Source: Treponema sp.
GTDB lineage: Bacteria > Spirochaetota > Spirochaetia > Treponematales > Breznakiellaceae
NCBI GenBank assembly: GCA_031267685.1
Contig: JAIRYV010000064.1
Span: forward strand, 62,001-126,000
Direction: 5' to 3'
DNA length: 64,000 nucleotides
Shown here: piece by piece, positions 3,687 through 62,297 of the stretch
Layout of the letters: each line of letters opens with the position of its first letter
Numbering within the stretch: the first letter of the stretch is position 1
Notes under the pieces: generated by a model
What the model was told of the DNA's origin: nothing
Seen by the model: the letters and a program-made list of their open reading frames with translations, nothing else
The model's database searches: none
Program-made: the position numbers and the translations under genes

Positions 3687-4709
3687 ATGCAGTACTTTTC
3701 GATTATTGACGACGCTGCGCTCCATGCCGGCGCAGAGGCATTACGCGCCGGTGAACTGACTGCCTTTCCTACAGAAACAGTCTATGGACTGGGCGCCGAT
3801 GCCTTTAATACACATGCACTGGCAAAGGTGTTTGAGGCAAAACAACGCCCGCGCTTTGACCCACTCATCATTCACATTGCCAGCCTTGATAGTGTGGAAC
3901 AGATTGCTGACCTGAGTCTGCTGAACGCGGCTGCACGCGCCCGTTTTGACACGCTTGCTCAGACGCTCTGGCCTGGGCCTCTGACACTCATACTGCCAAA
4001 ACAACGCGCTGTGCCTGAGCTTGCCACAAGCGGCCTCTTAACAGTGGCGCTGCGCTTCCCTCAACACGACGTGGCGCTGGCACTGATCCGGGCAGCAGGC
4101 GGCGCAATAGCCGCGCCCAGTGCCAACCCCTTTGGCTACCTCAGCCCTACACGTGCCGAGCATGTACGGGAACAGCTTGGCGAAAAGGTCGCGGTTATCC
4201 TTGACGGCGGTCCCTGTGGCATCGGCGTTGAATCAAGCGTACTGGAACTGGTCTCAGACACACCGCGTCTTCTGCGCCCAGGCGGAATGCCGCGTGAGCG
4301 TATTGAGGCGCTTATCGGCGCAGTGGAACTGGGTGTCGCGTCGGCTGTAACAACGCCCCTTTCACCAGGCCAGCTTAAAAGCCACTATGCGCCCCGAACC
4401 CGTCTTATGCTCCATAGCCGCGCTGAAATGCTTGAACTACCCTGGGAACCTGCGTCAGCCTGGCTTTTCTTTGACGGCAATACCCGCGACCTCTGGCTGC
4501 AGCATCGCCACATCATAAACCCGGGTCGCAATCAGGGCTGCATCCACACGCTCTCCGAACACGGCAATCTGGCTACTGCAGCTGCCTTGCTCTTCGAGAC
4601 TCTGTATGAAATTGACCATACTGGCGCATCTGCCATTCACGCTCAGCGTGTTCCCAGCGTAGGACTGGGAAATGCCATCAACGACCGGCTTGAACGAGCA
4701 GCGATTTAA
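3687..4709 (+). CDS. Sua5/YwlC-type threonylcarbamoyl-AMP synthase
   Basis: It makes threonylcarbamoyl-AMP from threonine, bicarbonate and ATP, the first step of the t6A modification at position 37 of ANN-decoding tRNAs. The YrdC-like domain fills about residues 10-205, with FPTETVYGLGADA, a KxRP-like KQRPRFDPL and SANPFGYLSPT. A linker with SPGQLKSHYAPRTRL leads into a C-terminal Sua5 domain, so this is the long Sua5 form (340 residues) and not the short TsaC form. It begins 7 bases after the corA stop, so the two are probably cotranscribed. Confidence 0.93.
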   Translation: MQYFSIIDDAALHAGAEALRAGELTAFPTETVYGLGADAFNTHALAKVFEAKQRPRFDPLIIHIASLDSVEQIADLSLLNAAARARFDTLAQTLWPGPLTLILPKQRAVPELATSGLLTVALRFPQHDVALALIRAAGGAIAAPSANPFGYLSPTRAEHVREQLGEKVAVILDGGPCGIGVESSVLELVSDTPRLLRPGGMPRERIEALIGAVELGVASAVTTPLSPGQLKSHYAPRTRLMLHSRAEMLELPWEPASAWLFFDGNTRDLWLQHRHIINPGRNQGCIHTLSEHGNLATAAALLFETLYEIDHTGASAIHAQRVPSVGLGNAINDRLERAAI

Positions 4710-4779
4710 CTATTCCTAAAGTTGCGCCACATGAAAAACTACTCTATTCGCTCACGCCCAAGTATGATACCATACGTGC

Positions 4780-6924
4780 ATGAGTTTTGGAAACTTCGTT
4801 GTTGAACCCGGTAAAGCGCTTCCATCAGGCGCAACCTTAACCGAGAATGGGGTGAACTTCTCCCTGTTTTCCCGTAATGCTGACTCAATCACGCTACTAT
4901 TATTTGAATCAGACGCTCCTGACAGCGCGTATCAAAAGTTGAAGCTTGATCCCATAAAGAATCGCACTGGTGATGTGTGGCATTGTTATATAGCCGGGCT
5001 CAACGCCGGCACGCTGTATCTCTACCTCGCGGACGGTCCGTATGCCCCTGAACGGGGCTTTCGGTTTAATCCTCACAAAGCACTCATCGATCCATACACG
5101 CGGGCATTGACGCGCTTTGATAACTGGGACCTGAGCGCCTGTACCGGTTATAACCCTGATGACCCAGGTCGCGACCTTTCGTTCTCTCTTCAGGAAAACT
5201 TCCGCTCCTCGCCACGCTGTGTGGTTATTAATGATGCGTTTGACTGGCAAGGGGATACGCCGCTCAACTATCCCCTGCGTTTCAGCGTGCTATACGAGAC
5301 CCACGTCAAGGGACTGACCGCCCATCCTTCTTCCGGCGTGGCGCACCCAGGCACTTATCAGGGCGTTATTGAGAAGATACCCTTCTTCAAAGACCTAGGC
5401 ATTACGAGCCTTGAGTTCCTGCCTATTCAGGAGTTCAATGAAAACGAGTATTTCCACCAAAACCCCCGCACGGGTGAGCGTCTGCGTAACTACTGGGGTT
5501 ACTCAACCGTGGCCTTCTTTGCTCCTAAAGGCTCTTACTCCTCTGATCGCAGTCCGGGATCACAAGTGCGGGAGTTCAAGGAGATGGTACGGGAACTGCA
5601 CAAAGCTGGCCTTGAAGTGATACTAGACATTGTGTTTAACCATACTGCCGAAGGCAATGAGATGGGGCCGACCTTCTCATTCCGCGGACTTGATAACTCG
5701 ATTTATTATATACTTGACGAGAACAAGCGCTACTACAAGAACTACTCCGGCTGTGGTAATACCGTGAACTGTAATCATCCGGTAGTGCGTGACCTTATCA
5801 CCGAGTGCCTTCGCTACTGGGTGATGGAGATGCACGTTGACGGGTTTCGTTTTGATCTTGGCTCTATACTTGGACGCGACCAGTATGGCAAGCTTCTTGA
5901 AAACCCGCCCACACTGGAACGCATTGCCGAAGACCCGGTTCTGCGGCACACCAAAATCATTGCGGAAGCCTGGGACGCGGGTGGTGCATATCAGGTAGGC
6001 TGGTTCCCCGGCGGACGCTGGGCTGAGTGGAATGATCGCTACCGGGACGACGTGCGGCGTTTCTGGCGAGGCGACGCTAAGCAGATGCGCCACCTTGCCA
6101 CGCGGATATCCGGCAGCGCAGACCTCTACCTACGCGATGGCAGGAAACCGTTTCACTCGATTAACTTCATCACGAGCCACGACGGTTTCACCTTAAAAGA
6201 CCTTGTCTCCTACTCCACTAAGCACAACGAGGAGAACGGCTGGAACAATACCGACGGCAGTGATAATAACAACAGTGCAAGCAACGGCTTTGAAGGCCAT
6301 TCCCAGAATCCTGCAATAGAAACAATCCGCGAGCGCCTCTTAAAGGATTTCATTGGCACTATGATGATTTCTCAAGGAACGCCGATGCTGCTTGGAGGCG
6401 ACGAGTTTGCCCGTACCCAGAACGGTAACAACAATGCCTACTGTCAAGACAACGAGACTTCTTGGTATGACTGGTCGCGTCTCAAGACCTATGCAGGGCT
6501 TTTCCGCTTTGTCAAAGAGGCCATAGCGTTTCGCCTGCGTCATCACGGTTTCATGCGGCCTGAATTTTACACTGGTCGTGATAACTACAACGCCATACCT
6601 GACATCAGTTGGTTTGATGCAAAGGGCAACACCCCTGACTGGAACGAGATCAATGAGTGTCTGGCGCTCCGCATGGATGGCAGTAAAGCCGACATTCTGG
6701 CTGATCGTGACGACAATGATTTTTACATTATGTTTAATGCTGGTTTAAGGGAGGTTCCCTTCACCATCTGCAAAGCGCCTGAAGGTAAGAAGTGGTTTCG
6801 CGCTATTGACACGGCTCTTCCCTCGCCGGATGACATCTGTCTTCCCAAAACAGAGAAGCCTTTGCCCTATCCAGACATTTACCTTGTAAAGCCGCGCAGT
6901 ATGGTTGTTTTGTTAAGCGTATAA
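4780..6924 (+). CDS. glgX: Glycogen debranching enzyme (GH13 isoamylase type)
   Basis: It hydrolyses alpha-1,6 branch points of glycogen or limit dextrins. An N-terminal CBM48-like beta-sandwich (about residues 10-110) precedes the GH13 barrel. Visible GH13 signatures are DIVFNHTAEGNE (about 283), GFRFDLGSILGRD with the nucleophile Asp (about 358), IIAEAWDAGG with the acid/base Glu (about 395) and FITSHDG (about 464). Its 714 residues are normal for GlgX/TreX. No signal peptide is seen, so it is cytoplasmic. The ribosome site before ATG 4780 is weak. It follows the Sua5 gene by 70 bases on the same strand. Confidence 0.95.
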   Translation: MSFGNFVVEPGKALPSGATLTENGVNFSLFSRNADSITLLLFESDAPDSAYQKLKLDPIKNRTGDVWHCYIAGLNAGTLYLYLADGPYAPERGFRFNPHKALIDPYTRALTRFDNWDLSACTGYNPDDPGRDLSFSLQENFRSSPRCVVINDAFDWQGDTPLNYPLRFSVLYETHVKGLTAHPSSGVAHPGTYQGVIEKIPFFKDLGITSLEFLPIQEFNENEYFHQNPRTGERLRNYWGYSTVAFFAPKGSYSSDRSPGSQVREFKEMVRELHKAGLEVILDIVFNHTAEGNEMGPTFSFRGLDNSIYYILDENKRYYKNYSGCGNTVNCNHPVVRDLITECLRYWVMEMHVDGFRFDLGSILGRDQYGKLLENPPTLERIAEDPVLRHTKIIAEAWDAGGAYQVGWFPGGRWAEWNDRYRDDVRRFWRGDAKQMRHLATRISGSADLYLRDGRKPFHSINFITSHDGFTLKDLVSYSTKHNEENGWNNTDGSDNNNSASNGFEGHSQNPAIETIRERLLKDFIGTMMISQGTPMLLGGDEFARTQNGNNNAYCQDNETSWYDWSRLKTYAGLFRFVKEAIAFRLRHHGFMRPEFYTGRDNYNAIPDISWFDAKGNTPDWNEINECLALRMDGSKADILADRDDNDFYIMFNAGLREVPFTICKAPEGKKWFRAIDTALPSPDDICLPKTEKPLPYPDIYLVKPRSMVVLLSV

Positions 6925-8017: not shown

Positions 8018-8887
8018 ATGATTGATTTACATACCCATTCAACAGCTTCAGACGGCAGTCTTAGTCCTACGGCGCTTGTTCACGCAGCGGCGGAACAGGA
8101 CATCACGGTGCTTGCACTCACGGATCATGACACCCTTGCTGGAGTCAGTGAAGCGGAGCAGGCGGCAAAACAGAAAGACATTCGGTTTATACCAGGGATT
8201 GAAATTGAGATTTCATGGGAACCAGGTGAGTTTCACCTGCTAGGTTTGGACGTATCAAAGCCCAGTCCTGCCTTCACGGAAACTATTACGGAACTGGCTC
8301 AGAAGCGGCAGGCGCGTAACCTTGCAATCATTGAGCGGATGCAGGAGGCTGGCATTACCGTGCAGTACGAAGATATCCTTACCCTTTCTGGGGGTCATTC
8401 AGTAGGACGTCCGCATTTTGCTTCTTTCTTAGTGAATCAGCATATTGTCAAGAACCATGAACAGGCGTTTGAAAAGTACCTTGCCAAGGGAAAGCCCTTT
8501 TATGTTCCTCGTGAGGGTCTTGACTTCCAGCGGGCGCTAACACTTATCAAAGAATCTGGTGGAATTACGGTTCTTGCTCACCCCATGTCGCTCTATGTTT
8601 CTTGGGGCAAACTGCCATCGCTTATCAGGAACTTCCAAGAACAGGGCCTAGATGGTATTGAGGCATGGCATCCTGCTGCAACGCCAAGGGTATGTAAGCG
8701 GCTTGAGGAACTGGGGCGTTTGCTAAATATGTACATTACAGCAGGCAGTGATTTTCACGGGGCCAATCGGCCTGATCGGAAGCTTGGTATCACTTCTGGT
8801 GGCCGCAATATAAGCGAAGCGTTTTTGGAAGCCATTCCGCCGCTGGCAGAAGGGGCGCTTCGAGCAGCAAGTCCATATCAGGTTTAG
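8018..8887 (+). CDS. PHP-domain phosphoesterase (TrpH/YciV-like)
   Basis: The PHP family holds metal-dependent phosphoesterases; the YciV/RNase AM branch removes nucleotides from 3',5'-bisphosphates or RNA 5' ends. The N-terminus carries the metal motif DLHTHSTASDGSLSP, then LALTDHDTLAG. Later metal ligands fit HPMS (about residue 188) and GSDFHG (about 245). Length (289) matches stand-alone YciV-like proteins. No strong ribosome site is visible before ATG 8018. The last codons and stop (CAGGTTTAG) belong to a motif that recurs twice inside the following repeat array. The 290 bases upstream hold no supported gene. Confidence 0.88.
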   Translation: MIDLHTHSTASDGSLSPTALVHAAAEQDITVLALTDHDTLAGVSEAEQAAKQKDIRFIPGIEIEISWEPGEFHLLGLDVSKPSPAFTETITELAQKRQARNLAIIERMQEAGITVQYEDILTLSGGHSVGRPHFASFLVNQHIVKNHEQAFEKYLAKGKPFYVPREGLDFQRALTLIKESGGITVLAHPMSLYVSWGKLPSLIRNFQEQGLDGIEAWHPAATPRVCKRLEELGRLLNMYITAGSDFHGANRPDRKLGITSGGRNISEAFLEAIPPLAEGALRAASPYQV

Positions 8888-8891
8888 GTAA

Positions 8892-9590
8892 TCTCCCACT
8901 CAGGCTTAGAGTGGTCGCCCACTCAGGCTTAGAGTGGCACACCACTCAGGCTTAGAGTGGTCTCCCACTCAGGCTTAGAGTGGCACACCACTCAGGCTTA
9001 GAGTGGTCGCCCACTCAGGCTTAGAGTGGTCTCCCACTCAGGCTTAGAGTGGCATACCACTCAGGCTTAGAGTGGTCGCCCACTTAGGCTTAGAGTGGTC
9101 TCCCACTCAGGTTTAGGTAATCTCCCACTCAGGCTTAGAGTGGCACACCACTCAGGCTTAGAGTGGTCTCCCACTTAGGCTTAGAGTGGTCTCCCACTCA
9201 GGCTTAGAGTGGTCTCCCACTTAGGCTTAGAGTGGTCTCCCACTCAGGCTTAGAGTGGTCTCCCACTCAGGTTTAGGTAATCTCCCACTCAGGCTTAGAG
9301 TGGTCTCCCACTCAGGCTTAGAGTGGCATACCACTCAGGCTTAGAGTGGTCGCCTACTTAGGCTTAGAGTGGTCTCCCACTCAGGCTTAGAGTGGCAGAC
9401 CACTCAGGCTTAGAGTGGGAGACCACTCAGGCTTAGAGTGGGAGACCACTCAGGCTTAGAGTGGTCTCCCACTCAGGCTTAGAGTGGCATACCACTCAGG
9501 CTTAGAGTGGTCTCCCACTCAGGCTTAGAGTGGTCGCCCACTCAGGCTTAGAGTGGCACACCACTCAGGCTTAGAGTGGGAGACCACAAA
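8892..9590. repeat. Array of about 30 near-palindromic repeats, 23 bp period
   Basis: About 30 units of the 19-bp core CCACTCAGGCTTAGAGTGG (6-bp arms, 7-bp centre) are joined by 4-base linkers. The linkers come from a small set: TCTC (most common), TCGC, CACA, CATA, CAGA and GAGA. Two units have the variant centre CAGGTTTAGGTAA, the same sequence that ends the preceding PHP gene. A few have CCACTTAGG. The array fills the gap between two convergent genes and abuts the GH9 terminator. It encodes no convincing protein. Confidence 0.95.
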
Positions 9591-9591
9591 A

Positions 9592-9612
9592 ATCGTGGCG
9601 CATTGCCACGAT
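9592..9612 (-). terminator. Rho-independent terminator of the GH9 gene
   Basis: Read leftward, ATCGTGGC, a 5-base loop and GCCACGAT form a perfect 8-bp stem followed directly by a run of T. It lies 40 bases past the GH9 stop codon. Confidence 0.85.
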
Positions 9613-9652
9613 AGCTCTTTCTTAACCAAAGTATTTACCTTGCTGACTTTTC

Positions 9653-11272
9653 TTAACGCGCTAATGAGTCAAAGTAGCCGACGACAAAAACCGCTGGAGA
9701 GTTCCAGTAGATCGCAATTTCGTTTGATGACGCGGTTGGTGTATGGTCGATCCAGAACTTGGCTGGCGGCGTATCCGGCGGGATCGTCATTTTAGCCGCC
9801 GCATCTGGATGTATCTTGTTGGGGCCGCCTGACACTAAGCCAGGTATAGGTGCGTCAATGCCATCAGCATAGGAAGGCCGGTGATGAGGAAAACGGACAG
9901 CCTTGTCGCCAAAGCCCGTAACAAAACTGTAACCAGTCGCGTTGAGTCCGAGGAGGTAATTGAACTGGGTTTGTGCCGTGTTCTGGTACTTATCCCGGTG
10001 GGTGAGCAGTTTGGCGCAGATCATGACGATGGCGTTATTGAGAATGGGCAATATGCTTCCCCAGATGTAGTTATCTGGGGCAAGAGCGGTTCCATAACCA
10101 CTTTTTTGGGCAAGTTCCACAATCTCATCGGCGCGTTTGAGGAAGCGGTCGCGCATGCTTGAGAGGAATAGTGGTTCCAGCGAGTCCTTAACGATAAAAA
10201 GGCAGCATAATGCACCAAAACCAGCGGTTTCCCGCCAGCCGAACTGGGCAATGTCAACCTTGTCCGCACGCCTTTTTATGGCCGAGAGGTACGACGCCTC
10301 ATGTGTAGCAGCGTAGAGTTCACAGGCAGCCCAGAAAAGGTCATCCTCGCAGTTTGGATCGCTGTATTCGCCGGAGCTGAGGTTTGGCGGATTCTTGAAC
10401 GGGACAAAGTCCGGGTGTTCCTCAAGGTATAACCAGGCTTGTTTTGCAGCCTGTAAGAGCCTTTCGGCGAGAAGCGGGTTGTACTTTCGATACACACGGT
10501 AGGCTTGCGCGTTTACGGCGGCAAAGCACGCGGTGGAGCAATGTGAGACGTCAAAGAGCAGGAGTTCCTCACGGTCGTCTTCGGGCATGACAAAAGGCGC
10601 GAAGTAGCGGGTGGTAACTTTGTGGTACACGCCGCCATCGGCTCTCTGCATTTTGAGCATCCACTCAAGCTCATAGCGGCACTCGTTGAGTATATCGGGA
10701 ACCCCATTGCCGCTTTCTGGAATGGTAAGCTCCTCGTTAAATACATTGGGGAAGAGTTCCCATGCGTAGAGGATATGAGAAATCGCCACTGCTGCTGGCT
10801 GAACATAACGGCCATAGTCGCCAGCATCATGCCAGCCGCCTGAACACTCGATAACTACGTTTTCCTCAAGGGTTCCATCTGCTTTCACCAGAGTTGCCTT
10901 GCTCAGATGACAGGCTCTGTGCTGAAACTCGCCGGCGTAACGTGGCTGGAGCGAACACCCGCAACGCTGGTAATACAGAGCCTTTACCAGCGCGTTGTTC
11001 AATTCGTGGTAGGGCCGTGCCTTGATCTCAATGCTTACCTTTTCCCCATCAGCTATGAGGAAATAGCGTCCTGGACTGACGAGGTTTGAGAAGTCCACGA
11101 TTCGCACTGTATCGCCTGAAGCCTCGTCATACACTGGCTCGGACAAACGCGGTTCGCAGACTTTCGCATGGCCATTGGCGTCGAGAATGACGCAGAGTTC
11201 CCCCTGCCCGGTTAAGACGGCTTTCTTGGGCAGATTGCTGTCATACCCAACCTGATTGTAATGAATACTCAT
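9653..11272 (-). CDS. Glycoside hydrolase family 9 (cellulase-like), cytoplasmic
   Basis: GH9 enzymes are inverting beta-glycosidases acting on cello-oligosaccharides, cellulose or, in some branches, chito-oligosaccharides. Residues 1-85 form a CelD_N-like Ig domain (HYNQVGYDSNLPKKAVL), then the (alpha/alpha)6 barrel. GGWHDAGDYGRYV holds the catalytic-base aspartates (Asp149/Asp152), HHRPS is conserved substrate-binding sequence, and the acid is probably Glu518 in NEIAIYWNSP. There is no signal peptide, so it probably acts on imported oligosaccharides. ATG 11272 is preceded by AAAGGAGCGGG. 539 residues is normal for Ig-GH9. Confidence 0.9.
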   Translation of the reverse strand: MSIHYNQVGYDSNLPKKAVLTGQGELCVILDANGHAKVCEPRLSEPVYDEASGDTVRIVDFSNLVSPGRYFLIADGEKVSIEIKARPYHELNNALVKALYYQRCGCSLQPRYAGEFQHRACHLSKATLVKADGTLEENVVIECSGGWHDAGDYGRYVQPAAVAISHILYAWELFPNVFNEELTIPESGNGVPDILNECRYELEWMLKMQRADGGVYHKVTTRYFAPFVMPEDDREELLLFDVSHCSTACFAAVNAQAYRVYRKYNPLLAERLLQAAKQAWLYLEEHPDFVPFKNPPNLSSGEYSDPNCEDDLFWAACELYAATHEASYLSAIKRRADKVDIAQFGWRETAGFGALCCLFIVKDSLEPLFLSSMRDRFLKRADEIVELAQKSGYGTALAPDNYIWGSILPILNNAIVMICAKLLTHRDKYQNTAQTQFNYLLGLNATGYSFVTGFGDKAVRFPHHRPSYADGIDAPIPGLVSGGPNKIHPDAAAKMTIPPDTPPAKFWIDHTPTASSNEIAIYWNSPAVFVVGYFDSLAR

Positions 11273-17948: not shown

Positions 17949-18044
17949 ACTATACTATCTGGTAAGAGTCAGTCGTTTCACGCCCTCACCTGATACAAGA
18001 GTGAAATACTTACCTTCCATATCCAATATATACGGTAAAGATTC

Positions 18045-18107
18045 CGCACATGTGCGGAATGTCTCTGTACATGTGCGGAATGTCTCCGCACATGTACAGA
18101 ATTAACA
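18045..18107. repeat. Three-unit palindromic repeat, 21 bp period
   Basis: Three consecutive 21-bp units carry the core CCGCACATGTGCGG (a perfect 14-bp palindrome) or its TGTACATGTGCGG and CGCACATGTACAG variants, joined by AATGTCTC. It lies between the two binding-protein genes. Confidence 0.85.
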
Positions 18108-19939: not shown

Positions 19940-20851
19940 TCAACCTTTAACCGCGCCAATCATAATGCCCTTGACAAAAAATCTCTGGAAAAATGGATAT
20001 ACCAGCAAAATAGGCAGCACAACGATAATGGTTACGGTCATACGTATTGAGGTTGCGGTTTGCGTCTGCGCCAGGGTTTGTGCAACAGAACTGCTCGACG
20101 AATTAACCAGTGCGGAAAGGGAACTCGCCTGATTTATGTATTGATACAGAATAAATTGCAGTGTATAGAGCTTACTGTTTGTCATTAAGATGAGCGTGTC
20201 CTGAAAAGCGTTCCACTGGTTTACGCCGGTAAATATCGCCACTGTTGCTAGTATGGGTTTGATAACCGGCATGATGATGCTGATGAATATCCTGATAGTT
20301 CCCGCGCCGTCTATCTCTGCAGCCTCCCGCATTTCTTTTGGAATAGATTCGATAAACGTTTTACACAGAATGATAAAAAAGGGAGAAATTAAACTGGGAA
20401 GTATATAACCAAAAAAATTATTAGTCAGATGGAGATTATTCATGGTTATATACCAAGGGATAATCCCAGCGTTAAAATACATGGTTATAATAACGAAACG
20501 ATACCAGAACTTTCTTTTCCATACGGTGTCGCGGGTAAACATATAACCCATGAATGCTGAAGTCAGCACGGTAAGCAATACGCCTAATAGGGTTCTGGCA
20601 GCGGATATTTTAGCGGCGTCGAGTAATCCGGGTATCTTCATAGCGTCAATATAATTCTGAACGTGTACCTCATGGGGTATGAATATAACCGCGCCCTTTT
20701 CGCTCAGGTTATTTGCGCTCATTGTGTTGATTAAAATATAATAAAATGGGTACACACATAAAAATGCGAAAACAGTGAACACGAGGTAGGTGATTATGAG
20801 TGATATAGTATCTGTTAGACGTGCATTTTTGAGTTTATTAAATACCTTCAC
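19940..20851 (-). CDS. Sugar ABC importer permease, LplC/YtcP type
   Basis: Six membrane segments and the ATPase-coupling EAA loop (EAAEIDGAGTIRIFISIIMPVIKP, about residues 193-216). The C-terminus FVKGIMIGAVKG is the hallmark of LplC-type permeases. At 303 residues it is full length. It starts 9 bases after the lplB-like gene. No ATPase gene lies nearby; in relatives a shared MsmX-type ATPase serves such importers. Confidence 0.92.
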   Translation of the reverse strand: MKVFNKLKNARLTDTISLIITYLVFTVFAFLCVYPFYYILINTMSANNLSEKGAVIFIPHEVHVQNYIDAMKIPGLLDAAKISAARTLLGVLLTVLTSAFMGYMFTRDTVWKRKFWYRFVIITMYFNAGIIPWYITMNNLHLTNNFFGYILPSLISPFFIILCKTFIESIPKEMREAAEIDGAGTIRIFISIIMPVIKPILATVAIFTGVNQWNAFQDTLILMTNSKLYTLQFILYQYINQASSLSALVNSSSSSVAQTLAQTQTATSIRMTVTIIVVLPILLVYPFFQRFFVKGIMIGAVKG

Positions 20852-24931: not shown

Positions 24932-26275
24932 TTATACATAGCTATTAAAGGAAAGGTATATCAATTCTGGATGGTACTCAAAGTGCATGGTGTCATACGT
25001 CGCCCATTTGCCACCCCAAATAAAACCCTCATCCTCAAAGATGCGTACCACAGAATCAGGAGGATTCAGCTTATCCTCTTCCGGCACTGTGCGGAAGTCA
25101 ATGCCCTTTTGCTGGGTCCAAAGCCAGTAAGTCTCCTTGCCCGGCTGTGACTTCATCAACAAATCAATCGCCACACCGTAAGAATGAAAGCTGCGGCTGC
25201 TGCTCCCCGCAATATTCCGCCAATTCCACGCGCCAATGCTGTCTAATGATTGTTTCCACACCGCGATCTCTTCGTTCTCCTTTTCAAGCTCATTGATGCG
25301 CTGCTCAACCCGCGCCAACGGCACAACAGTCCGCTCATGTACGGTTACCGCGCTTCCCAAAAACCTGATAGTCTGTTGATGCGCAAACGCCTCTGTACGA
25401 GTTTCACATTGAAGGAGCTTCTCATAAAAGTTTGAACGAACCGCACCAGAAGCAGCGCGACCATATCCACGACTTACCCTATCCGTAAAAATACTCCGAC
25501 GCCAGAAAAGCTCCTCAGCAGCTTCCCTCCACGTATTACCCTCCGCTGTATCATCAGCAAATTCCGTAACATAACGGGATAGAGACTGAGAACGAAAGCT
25601 CGCCGCCTGTTCAACCTCTGTTTCACTTAACAGTTTGCCCTGAGCATAGTAATACCGCTCCTCATCCATCTCCACGGTCCAATCGCCACCATACAATACA
25701 GGCTCACCAATACGGTCAGGATAGGCTGCTGCAAACGCCTTCATCACCGCTTCGGCCCGTTCACCCGCATCCCGCAACACATTAAGCTCCTCACTAAACA
25801 CCACAAGCAGGGCATCCACCTGTTCACCCACAGGCTTCATGGTAAAGAGCGAAACCCCCGTAAAGCCGCCAACCCCGCCAGCGTGTATCACACGCGGCCG
25901 GTATATCTGTTTTTCAAAAAGATCGCTGTAATCAGCATCATCATCTACGCCAGTCCAGAACGGAATGACAATACCGTCAAAAAAATCAGCGTTTGACAAA
26001 AAAGTCTGCATTGGCAGGGCTATGTCATTGTCAATGATTGAAGCACCAACAAAATAGTAGCGATACGTCCGCAAATCAGGCAACTCTTGCTTACCTTCAA
26101 TATCAAACAAGGCGGAACCGGTCTTCTCAGCAAGCAGTTTCGCCACCCGCCGCGTTTCAGCCGTTTCTGAATAATAAAATACCACGCTATCTGTTTCTTC
26201 CGGATACTCTTCAGCACAGGCTGCCAGCGCAAGAACGAGTATATATAGTATGGTACAATGCTTATAGTGTATCAT
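24932..26275 (-). CDS. Lipoprotein fusing a flavodoxin-like domain to an M15 (VanY-type) peptidase domain
   Basis: ATG 26275 opens a lipoprotein signal (lipobox LAAC, Cys20). An in-frame extension of 47 residues upstream is rejected because it runs into the neighbouring gene. Residues 31-160 look like a flavodoxin: VVFYYSETAETRRVAKLLAE is the FMN-phosphate loop region, then DLRTYRYYFVGASI and IVIPFWTGVDDD. Residues 350-440 are an M15C-like D-Ala-D-Ala carboxypeptidase: SRSFHSYGVAIDLL and WGGKWATYDTMHFEYHP give zinc ligands His364, Asp371 and His431. A coiled segment (about 318-340) precedes it. It would sit in the envelope facing peptidoglycan. I know of no such fusion; see findings. Confidence 0.85.
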   Translation of the reverse strand: MIHYKHCTILYILVLALAACAEEYPEETDSVVFYYSETAETRRVAKLLAEKTGSALFDIEGKQELPDLRTYRYYFVGASIIDNDIALPMQTFLSNADFFDGIVIPFWTGVDDDADYSDLFEKQIYRPRVIHAGGVGGFTGVSLFTMKPVGEQVDALLVVFSEELNVLRDAGERAEAVMKAFAAAYPDRIGEPVLYGGDWTVEMDEERYYYAQGKLLSETEVEQAASFRSQSLSRYVTEFADDTAEGNTWREAAEELFWRRSIFTDRVSRGYGRAASGAVRSNFYEKLLQCETRTEAFAHQQTIRFLGSAVTVHERTVVPLARVEQRINELEKENEEIAVWKQSLDSIGAWNWRNIAGSSSRSFHSYGVAIDLLMKSQPGKETYWLWTQQKGIDFRTVPEEDKLNPPDSVVRIFEDEGFIWGGKWATYDTMHFEYHPELIYLSFNSYV

Positions 26276-47717: not shown

Positions 47718-47858
47718 ACTAAGCTCTCCTTTAAGCAATGGTATAGTCGTGCATGTTAATGTACTACGTCAGCATGAATTGTTGATGCTTGAACTAGTAT
47801 TTATGATAAACTTTCTTTCTGTTTTTGTAAAGAGGTAGTTTTTCTATAGGTCGGCAGC

Positions 47859-48048
47859 TTTATCCCTCCGCAAGGAAAGTTTATCCTTCCGCAAGGAAAG
47901 TTTATCCCTCCGCAAGGAAAGCTTATCCCTCCGCAAGGAAAGCTTATCCCTCCGCAAGGAAAGTTTATCCTTCCGCAGGGAAAGTTTTGCCGACATGTCT
48001 GTAGCTTTATCCTTCCGCAAGGAAAGTTTTGCCGACATGTCGGCAAGC
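47859..48048. repeat. 21-bp tandem array (CCGCAAGGAAAG type), followed by a 33-bp interruption and one more unit
   Basis: Six near-identical 21-bp units TTTATCCCTCCGCAAGGAAAG (some CTTATCC, CTTCCGC or CAGGGAAAG) run from 47859 to 47984. Then TTTTGCCGACATGTCTGTAGC, another unit, and TTTTGCCGACATGTCGGCAAG follow. The last part contains the palindrome CCGACATGTCGG. It adjoins a second, different 21-bp array. Confidence 0.9.
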
Positions 48049-48077
48049 TTTACCAGCATAGCTAGAAAGATAATCGA

Positions 48078-48550
48078 CCTGATGTGGAAGGTTACTGGCC
48101 TGACGGGAAAGCTCTCCGGCCTGATGTGGAAGTGTACTAGCCTGACGGGAAAGCACGCCGATCTGACGTGGATGGTTACTGGCCTGATATAAAATCTCTC
48201 CGGCATGATGTGGAAGTGTACTAGCCTGATAGGAAAGCTCTCCGGCATGACGTGGAAGGTTACTGGCCTGACGGTAAAATTTATCGACATGACATGGAAA
48301 TTTGCTGGCCTGACCGGAAAGTTCTCCGGCCTTACGTGGATGGTTGCTAGCCTGACGGGAAAGTTATCCGGCCTGACGTGGAAGGCTGTCGGCATGATGT
48401 GGAAGTGTACTAGCCTGACGGGAAAGCTCTCCGGCCTGACGTGGATGGTTGCTGGCCTGACGGGAAAGCTCTCCGACCTGACGTGAAAGGCTGTCGGCCT
48501 GATGTGGAAGTGTACTAGCCTGATAGGAAAGCTCTCCGACCTGACATGAA
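48078..48550. repeat. 21-bp tandem array of about 22 units in two alternating forms
   Basis: About 22 units of 21 bp alternate, with variation, between CCTGACGGGAAAGCTCTCCGG and CCTGATGTGGAAGTGTACTAG or ...GGTTACTGG forms (each read separately). The period is divisible by three, which opens long low-complexity frames on both strands. It sits past the 3' end of the sensor kinase. Bases 48551-48761 hold no supported gene. Confidence 0.93.
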
Positions 48551-48761
48551 AATTTTTCAGCGCAGAGAAAGAAGTAACGGAATTCACTACACAGTTATCA
48601 ATGAGGTGTGACGAAATCTGGACGCTTAGAGGCGAAGGCTATACCGGTAAAGCCTGTCCCGTCATTATTGTTCAGGTTCCCCACCAGCCCCATATAAACT
48701 CCTCTGTTGCGAGAACAAACGTCTCTGTCCGACGATATGTTCAGAATGTTTATCATATCAA

Positions 48762-55362: not shown

Positions 55363-55420
55363 CTCAGTTCCATCAAAAAAATAGCTATAGAAAAAAGATT
55401 GTTTGACGAAGTCAGTATGA

Positions 55421-55730
55421 ACTTCTGTAAACCTCTCCAGAACTCCTAGAGATCATTCTACAACTTCTGTAAACCTCTCTAGGATTTCTATAAACCTCTC
55501 TATGACTCGTAGAGATCATTCCAGAACTTCTGTAAACCTCTCCAGGACTCATAGAGATCATTCTAGAACTTCTGTAAACCTCTCCAGAACTCGTAGAGAT
55601 CATTCTAGAACTTCTGTAAACCTCTCCAGAACTCGTAGAGATCATTCTACAACTTCTATAAACCTCTCTAGGACTCATAGAGAGGTTTATAGAAGTTCTG
55701 TAAACCTCTCCAGAACTCGTAGAGATCATT
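55421..55730. repeat. 21/42-bp tandem array between convergent genes, with a 20-bp inverted repeat
   Basis: About 15 units of 21 bp form 42-bp pairs: ACTTCTGTAAACCTCTCCAG then AACTCGTAGAGATCATTCTAG-like. CAGAACTTCTG is a short palindrome at the joins. At 55651-55697 one unit is inverted, giving two perfect 20-bp arms (AACTTCTATAAACCTCTCTA and its complement) around GGACTCA, a strong hairpin. The period gives open frames on both strands that are not convincing genes. Confidence 0.93.
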
Positions 55731-55808
55731 AGCGTTTTCTTCATAATACTCTTTGAGTATATACTGATCAGACAATAGATTCATAGCTAGTTCCGTTGAT
55801 TATTGGAC

Positions 55809-61978: not shown

Positions 61979-62171
61979 TACCCTGGAGGACGATAGTCAC
62001 GACTGTTCGCATCCGTTGAAAAAATCTTGTTACCGCAAAGCAGATAGACAGCGTTGAAACAAACAGCGTTCACGCCCCACTGTTCAGGTAGTCATCAGGC
62101 TTCTGTTGTATAGAGAATTTGTAAAAGTATCCACTTACGTTTACTTGAAACTAGTCCATCCTTGAATACTA

Positions 62172-62297
62172 TAGGGGCGCCCCTAAACATACTAGAGTTG
62201 CCCTTAAGCCTTCAGGGGCGCCCCTAAACACTATAGAGTCGCCTCTGAAGGTCTCAGGATTGCCCTGATATTTCGAGGGATGACTCTAAACATATAT
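62172..62297. repeat. Six-unit degenerate palindromic array, 21 bp period
   Basis: Six consecutive 21-bp units start with a palindrome: TAGGGGCGCCCCTA (perfect) in units 1 and 3, degenerate in the others (AGAGTTGCCCTT, AGAGTCGCCTCT, AGGATTGCCCTG, GGGATGACTC), with tails such as AACATAC. It lies in the 990-base gap between divergent valS and lplB. Apart from this array and the two promoters, the gap (61979-62909) shows no supported gene. Confidence 0.82.

Follow-up and report, generated by a model that had tools for sequence, protein, structure and literature searches.

A 23-bp hairpin array in the stop codon of a Treponema PHP-domain gene, probably an orphan of an array class found at the ends of HU-like/DUF4469 genes

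The window analysed here, 64,000 nt from a draft genome of Treponema sp. (GCA_031267685.1, contig JAIRYV010000064.1, nt 62,001–126,000 of the forward strand), carries a PHP-domain phosphoesterase gene (nt 8018–8887, + strand; 289 aa; PF02811, E 5e-14) whose stop codon lies in a motif that occurs again within the tandem array that follows. The question raised by this locus is which of the two, gene or array, supplied the shared sequence. The window's genome (G000; 2.67 Mb in 109 contigs) was compared with its congeners G001–G004, each species being represented by one genome.

The motif, CAGGTTTAGGTAATCTCCC, is present in exactly three copies in the window, all on the + strand (nt 8879–8897, 9108–9126 and 9268–9286), and a search of the whole window found no copy on the opposite strand. 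The original prediction of a motif that crosses the PHP stop and recurs in a 23-bp array was therefore borne out, with three exact copies; of its positions 8879 was right, while those of the inner copies, about 9109 and 9269, were each one base off. Tandem Repeats Finder (TRF) reports a single array (nt 8878–9579, period 23, 30.7 copies), which the unit list resolves into 31 units (nt 8878–9583, + strand), the first truncated, with 28 units of 23 bp and three of 22 bp, the copy number being uncertain in a draft assembly. The regular unit is CCACTC-AGGCTTA-GAGTGG followed by a 4-nt spacer. Units 1, 11 and 18 are one 22-bp variant, CCACTCAGGTTTAGGTAATCTC, unit 1 being without its first four bases, and they contain motif copies 1, 2 and 3, respectively, the first of which covers the TAG of the PHP ORF (nt 8885–8887). 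Since the motif copies are one variant unit, they do not represent three independent events. Rightwards from TCAGG, agreement between the copy at the gene and the two inner ones extends for 37 and 39 bp; leftwards there is none (0 bp), while the inner pair agree for 21 bp on that side. The match reaches into the array and never into the gene, and so the shared sequence is that of the array.

Comparison with other genomes places the array boundary precisely. The PHP protein has matches in 35 of 39 genomes, and the gene end is assembled in two congeners, G004 and G001, which make up the 3' comparison (the gap behind the gene is broken in G002 and G003, and G001 is broken within it). Both have a TAA stop where the G000 array begins, and the motif is absent from both gene ends (...AAGTCTATAA in G004 and ...AAGTCTGTAA in G001). 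The last gene-derived stretch of G000, AAGTCCATA (nt 8869–8877, + strand), continues as AAGTCTATAAAAAAT in G004 and as AAGTCTGTAAAAGCG in G001. Beyond the array the G000 sequence resumes as AAAAATCGTGGCGCATTGCCACGATAGCTCTTTCTTAA, the second half of which is found in G004 within about 20 bases past the stop; ATTGCTGCGATAGCTCTTGCTTAA, just past the stop of G004, matches ATTGCCACGATAGCTCTTTCTTAA beyond the array of G000 over 24 columns (0 of 1000 shuffles). The right flank of G001 gives an 8-bp match, weak support given that 96 of 1000 shuffles were equally good. The convergent glycoside hydrolase family 9 (GH9) gene, the right syntenic anchor (nt 9653–11272, − strand; PF00759, E 8.5e-86), stands together with PHP in G004 also. 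The TAA of the congeners at the left edge of the array, taken with the continuous flank in G004, identifies the array as an insertion into the stop codon; judged from the sequence, a block of about 0.7 kb is inserted there, with no visible loss from its flanks.

From this we infer an insertion in G000, rather than a loss in both congeners. The block would have entered the PHP TAA between AAGTCCATA and (CCAC)AAAAAT, after the split from G004 and G001, in an illegitimate or replicative event, and its truncated first unit, TCAGGTTTAG, would then have provided PHP with both its present TAG and the C-terminal YQV, the protein now ending in ...SPYQV. Any regular unit in that frame also yields a TAG (CAG GCT TAG). 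The suggestion that the array overwrote the gene end is thus supported, as the array supplies both the stop and YQV at the former TAA. The opposite suggestion, that the PHP 3' end gave rise to the array by growth or copying, fails because the congener ends are without the motif and nothing is common on the gene side; orthologues with such motif-free ends had been named beforehand as the observation to look for against growth from PHP, and G004 and G001 both provide it. Growth in place could appeal to a gene-to-array copy relation at another G000 locus (C35, see below) and to a local amplification of the PHP flank that occurred in G004, but the unit family of the PHP array is present at other G000 loci as well, and given the congener ends and the match on the array side alone, this explanation was rejected as extremely improbable.

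The array could instead be ancestral and have been lost from both G004 and G001 with the TAA restored. Array turnover is fast, and each of the three species carries an array of some sort in the PHP/GH9 gap, yet two independent exact losses at one base would be required, and the gap arrays of G004 and G001 differ in units and positions; we regard such a history as quite improbable.

The PHP/GH9 gap is a hot spot for arrays. That of G004 has a 23-bp array besides a 44-bp array, that of G001 an array of about 45 bp, and in G003 a 21-bp array lies ahead of the GH9 end. The 44-bp array of G004 (C71, nt 20255–20572) was formed from resident PHP flank that is single-copy in G000, the core of its 7 copies being GATAGCTCTTTCTTAA (nt 9610–9625 of the window, + strand). 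Just beyond the PHP array is a terminator-like hairpin (nt 9592–9612, both strands), homologous to sequence immediately after the PHP stop in G004; this hairpin, from which the PHP stop is now 0.7 kb distant, probably represents the native terminator of PHP and GH9. Orthologous gaps elsewhere likewise have arrays with different units between congeners. In the window, the adenylate kinase/CorA gap holds an array of period 24/47 (nt 2293–2555; TRF), also of the kind found across the genus; the 23-bp array that G001 has there is unrelated, G002 and G004 have none, and a third gap has 23-, 22- and 21-bp arrays in G001, G002 and G003, respectively, the matching point in G004 being short and array-free. 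An array-bearing insertion is also found in G004 (C71, nt 25206–25289) at the stop codon of the orthologue of the window gene at nt 3687–4709. A 22-bp array of G001 (C136, nt 4400–4830) is carried by an insertion whose 20-bp ends are inverted, CAGGATAAACGCATAGAAAT, and which may be accompanied by a 9-bp duplication; inner sequence like that of this insertion flanks the array at the G001 adenylate kinase/CorA gap. At the PHP junctions themselves, neither terminal inverted repeats nor a target-site duplication, as expected of a MITE, are visible.

The PHP array has the tandem 10–100 bp units of a minisatellite (VNTR), and its spacers are short (4 nt) and recurrent, rather than the unique spacers of about 25–40 nt that define a CRISPR. 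For six of the 12 spacer types, the reverse complement is itself a spacer type of the array (P 0.0011 against random sets), and inversion of the loop may be the source of these. Later internal change would have placed the 22-bp variant at three positions and left some 4-nt spacers in both orientations between the 6-bp inverted arms, and the hairpins may be upheld by selection or by hairpin-templated correction.

The unit is not confined to this locus. With up to one mismatch, the 19-mer CAGGTTTAGGTAATCTCCC has 50 copies in G000 and 2 in G015; of the 195 family genomes, the 193 that remain have none. A wider hairpin family, with the loop AGGCTTR and covarying stems, was found in 14 of the 195 (0 for a backward control), and relatives with the same loop and other paired stems (CCGCTC/GAGCGG, CCGATC/GATCGG), mostly in 23-bp arrays, in 8 of 56 genera; two stem versions are common to more than one genus. 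Among 101 distinct in-array units, 41 have C-G and 37 have A-T at stem pair 3, and 62 have G-C and 26 have A-T at pair 4. A fully paired stem is present at 95 of 105 places, counted by hand among the first family places listed for each genome. The PHP array, with its 23-bp period and AGGCTTR-loop hairpin unit, likely belongs to this 23-bp class. Rfam gave two matches only, far under gathering scores, PADLOC gave none, and NCBIfam gave one weak, unrelated match.

Comparison of the flanks of the hairpin-family members led to a gene that, in several genera, ends right at the array. Its product is a DUF4469 protein (PF14734 in all 15 aligned members, of which 14 also have the HU-like DNA-binding domain PF14848), with one clear solved relative, the uncharacterised protein 4fmr (E 3.7e-20). 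This protein had no match in phages, plasmids or viral contigs, and the PHP array had none in phages and plasmids. A search of 26 genomes gave 100 DUF4469 matches in 16, including all 14 hairpin-family genomes (1–13 each); among the 12 others, matches were limited to G006 (7) and G154 (1). Seventy-four of the 100 were examined, in two sets of 52 and 22. At 45 of the 74 loci (32/52 and 13/22) the first 300 bp 3' of the DUF4469 stop contain the start of an array, and at 39 (28/52 and 11/22) the first 30 bp do, against 27 and 4, respectively, of 270 ordinary G000 genes (crude ORF-based calls). Of these 45 arrays, 43 have 23 as their smallest TRF period. No array is found within 300 bp 3' at 29 of the 74 loci, some of which are cut by contig ends, and on the 5' side an array is present at 6 of 46 loci with sufficient flank. 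Some genes without a 3' array (on C37, C38 and C58 of G000, and others) have a 5' array within 300 bp. In a phylum-wide draw, PF14734 was found in 41 of 296 genomes, and a 23- or 46-bp repeat lies within 300 bp at 15 of 30 fetched loci, in families f3 and f31. The 23-bp arrays are therefore associated with the stops of HU-like/DUF4469 genes.

Gene and unit also vary together. Over 34 loci, protein similarity correlates with unit similarity (r 0.39; 0 of 2000 permutations), and two loci from different genera, G054:C85 and G000:C35, have an identical unit beside proteins that are 83% identical. At G000:C35, where the gene is intact, the array core GCGCAGGCTTA equals the last codons of the gene, GCG CAG GCT TAG (Q-A-stop), and two family f3 genes have array cores that resemble the gene end in the same way. 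A general derivation of DUF4469 arrays from the gene end was rejected, as only 3 of 57 loci scored above all controls when gene ends were sought in their arrays (mean 8.68 vs 8.52 for control words). The CCACTC unit also lies two bases past a DUF4469 stop at G000:C15, the nearest neighbour of this kind for the unit; the gene there shows decay, with stops in frame at two early positions and a tail that has been cut short, and for that reason the array beside it may be secondary too. No DUF4469 gene lies directly 5' of the PHP array, and there is none on its contig, C59, among the matches listed, so that the PHP array is tied to these genes by its unit family only; that it was born from a DUF4469 gene end is a possibility. 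Taken as a whole, it is probable that the PHP array is an orphan of the HU-like/DUF4469 23-bp hairpin class, inserted into the PHP TAA after the split from G004 and G001.

Arrays of this general kind are frequent in the genus. Under the criteria of at least 60 bp and a period of 20–24 or 41–48, a sample of 616,897 bases from G000–G004, biased to array contigs in G001–G004, yielded 71 arrays; G000 alone has 33 in 333,639 bases. Many contigs in G000, G001, G003, G004, G085 and G098 start or end in an array, and arrays therefore seem to break assemblies and are probably undercounted. In other genera (21 genomes, sampled at 4.7–80 kb each), G012 has four arrays and G008, G017 and G019 one each, those of G017 and G019 looking like coding low complexity. 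Among the 66 genus arrays with a 20–24 bp unit, periods of 21, 22, 23 and 24 occur 26, 5, 34 and 1 times. A second class, of period 21 and with no recognised partner gene, is seen in the genus genomes and in the window (TRF), at nt 18043–18102, 47859–48551 (21/42/63-bp arrays), 55419–55730 (periods 42/63/105 bp, multiples of 21) and 62168–62243; no gene in common was found beside 26 such arrays. Open frames run through some of them (− strand, nt 47844–48587 and 55412–55744), as a 21-bp period keeps the reading frame; these are probably not genes. A palindrome score over the whole unit gave P ≤0.05 for 12 of 66 units (median 0.47), and a test of the longest contiguous stem picked out 16 (4 of 26 for period 21, 12 of 34 for period 23), with mean stems of 4.58 vs 3.51 for period 21 and 5.29 vs 3.62 for period 23. 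AGGCTTA as a universal array loop was rejected, being present in 11 of 71 arrays only, some on contigs that were fetched because they matched, and so was one ancestry for all units, representatives of the unit families being no more alike than shuffles.

The array could also be an ordinary minisatellite, formed by local replication slippage and overlapping the PHP stop by chance in a small gap. Of 50 gene-stop edges of genus arrays that could be classified, just 2 lie inside the array, so that stop overlap is rare for arrays at large, and the unit order of the PHP array has no long repeated blocks (no excess over shuffles). The PHP-array unit is nevertheless found at distant loci, with related units in other genera, the genus arrays keep two preferred periods (21 and 23) in spite of unrelated units, and those of 23 bp are strongly tied to one gene family; we consider this explanation unlikely. 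A further view takes the 23-bp arrays as 3' terminators or RNA stabilisers with no specific protein partner, consistent with the very stable predicted RNA fold of the PHP array (z −9) and with arrays at the stop codons of DUF4469 genes. Classifiable genus arrays are intergenic in 47 of 50 cases, but the orientations of their gaps (tandem 24, convergent 13, divergent 10) are similar to background (164, 56, 60), giving no clear preference from which a terminator role could be drawn, and a native terminator-like hairpin is already there beyond the PHP array. We therefore hold this view to be doubtful.

Movement by a RAYT (Y1) transposase, as an element of REP type, also deserves mention, since the units are hairpins, the PHP array is made of intergenic palindromes of the 20–40 bp typical of REPs, and genus genomes have 6–11 Y1_Tnp matches each, above most relatives. 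The REP tag GTAG or CGTC is, however, absent from the regular unit on either strand, and the RAYT genes here are not flanked by the array repeat; the repeats beside them are of another kind, GTGTCTGACAC-like and mostly 5' of the gene. At the 29 genus RAYT loci such palindromes lie near the Y1_Tnp genes, often 140–300 bp 5'. With 9 Y1_Tnp matches in G000, and 21/23-bp arrays starting within 300 bp 3' at only 6 of the 29 loci, RAYT was rejected as the mover, and an element of this type is very improbable.

Several known systems combine a protein gene with short repeats. Type III toxin-antitoxin loci consist of a protein gene with a short tandem array of RNA hairpins 5' of the toxin gene; the adjoining of gene and hairpin array is alike, but the array here is 3' of the gene and the protein looks DNA-binding. 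REP/BIME elements with RAYT are presented, in the accessible part of PMC3733652, as multi-copy, clustered short intergenic palindromes, the gene having flanking repeats and orphan copies lying elsewhere. The 23-bp arrays share the clustered intergenic palindromes, the partner gene and the orphan copies, but are arranged head-to-tail with an exact 23-bp period and no GTAG/CGTC tag, and their partner is HU-like/DUF4469, not a Y1 transposase, with the array mainly 3'. Bacterial minisatellites and small dispersed repeats, as far as the accessible text of PMC2884548 describes them, are similar in their tandem units of about 20 bp, intergenic position and possible mobility; the arrays described here differ in their covarying stems round a fixed loop, two preferred periods and tie to a gene family. 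In Treponema denticola, TDE_2259, reported to be expressed in a regulator mutant (PMC12724145), is an HU-like/DUF4469 protein with PF14848 and PF14734, the domain pair of the array-bearing genes; the accessible part of that report does not mention a tandem array beside it. Within a partial coverage of the literature, no description was found of HU-like/DUF4469 genes paired with 23-bp stop-codon arrays, and nothing on these arrays among reports on tandem repeats of Treponema or termite-gut bacteria, intergenic repeats with stop codons, or HU-like proteins, and so the pairing of HU-like DNA-binding genes with 23-bp hairpin arrays at their stops looks unreported.

A tentative picture, to which we give a little less than even weight, is that of a two-part spirochaete element, in which an HU-like/DUF4469 gene and its own 23-bp array on the stop would be inherited or moved together, each paralogue with its own unit, while orphan arrays would enter the stop codons of other genes and donate a stop to them, as at PHP, and the proteins may bind the dispersed arrays genome-wide. 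The units might then serve these proteins as binding sites or as 3' RNA structures, and the arrays would have spread to give a patchy distribution across genomes. The PHP locus provides a base-resolution case of a repeat array taking over the stop codon of a gene, and the pairing of gene and array recurs at loci of several families of spirochaetes. Should the proteins bind the arrays, gene and repeat would together form a system of a new kind, which may explain how a termite-gut genus comes to have an array about every 10 kb.
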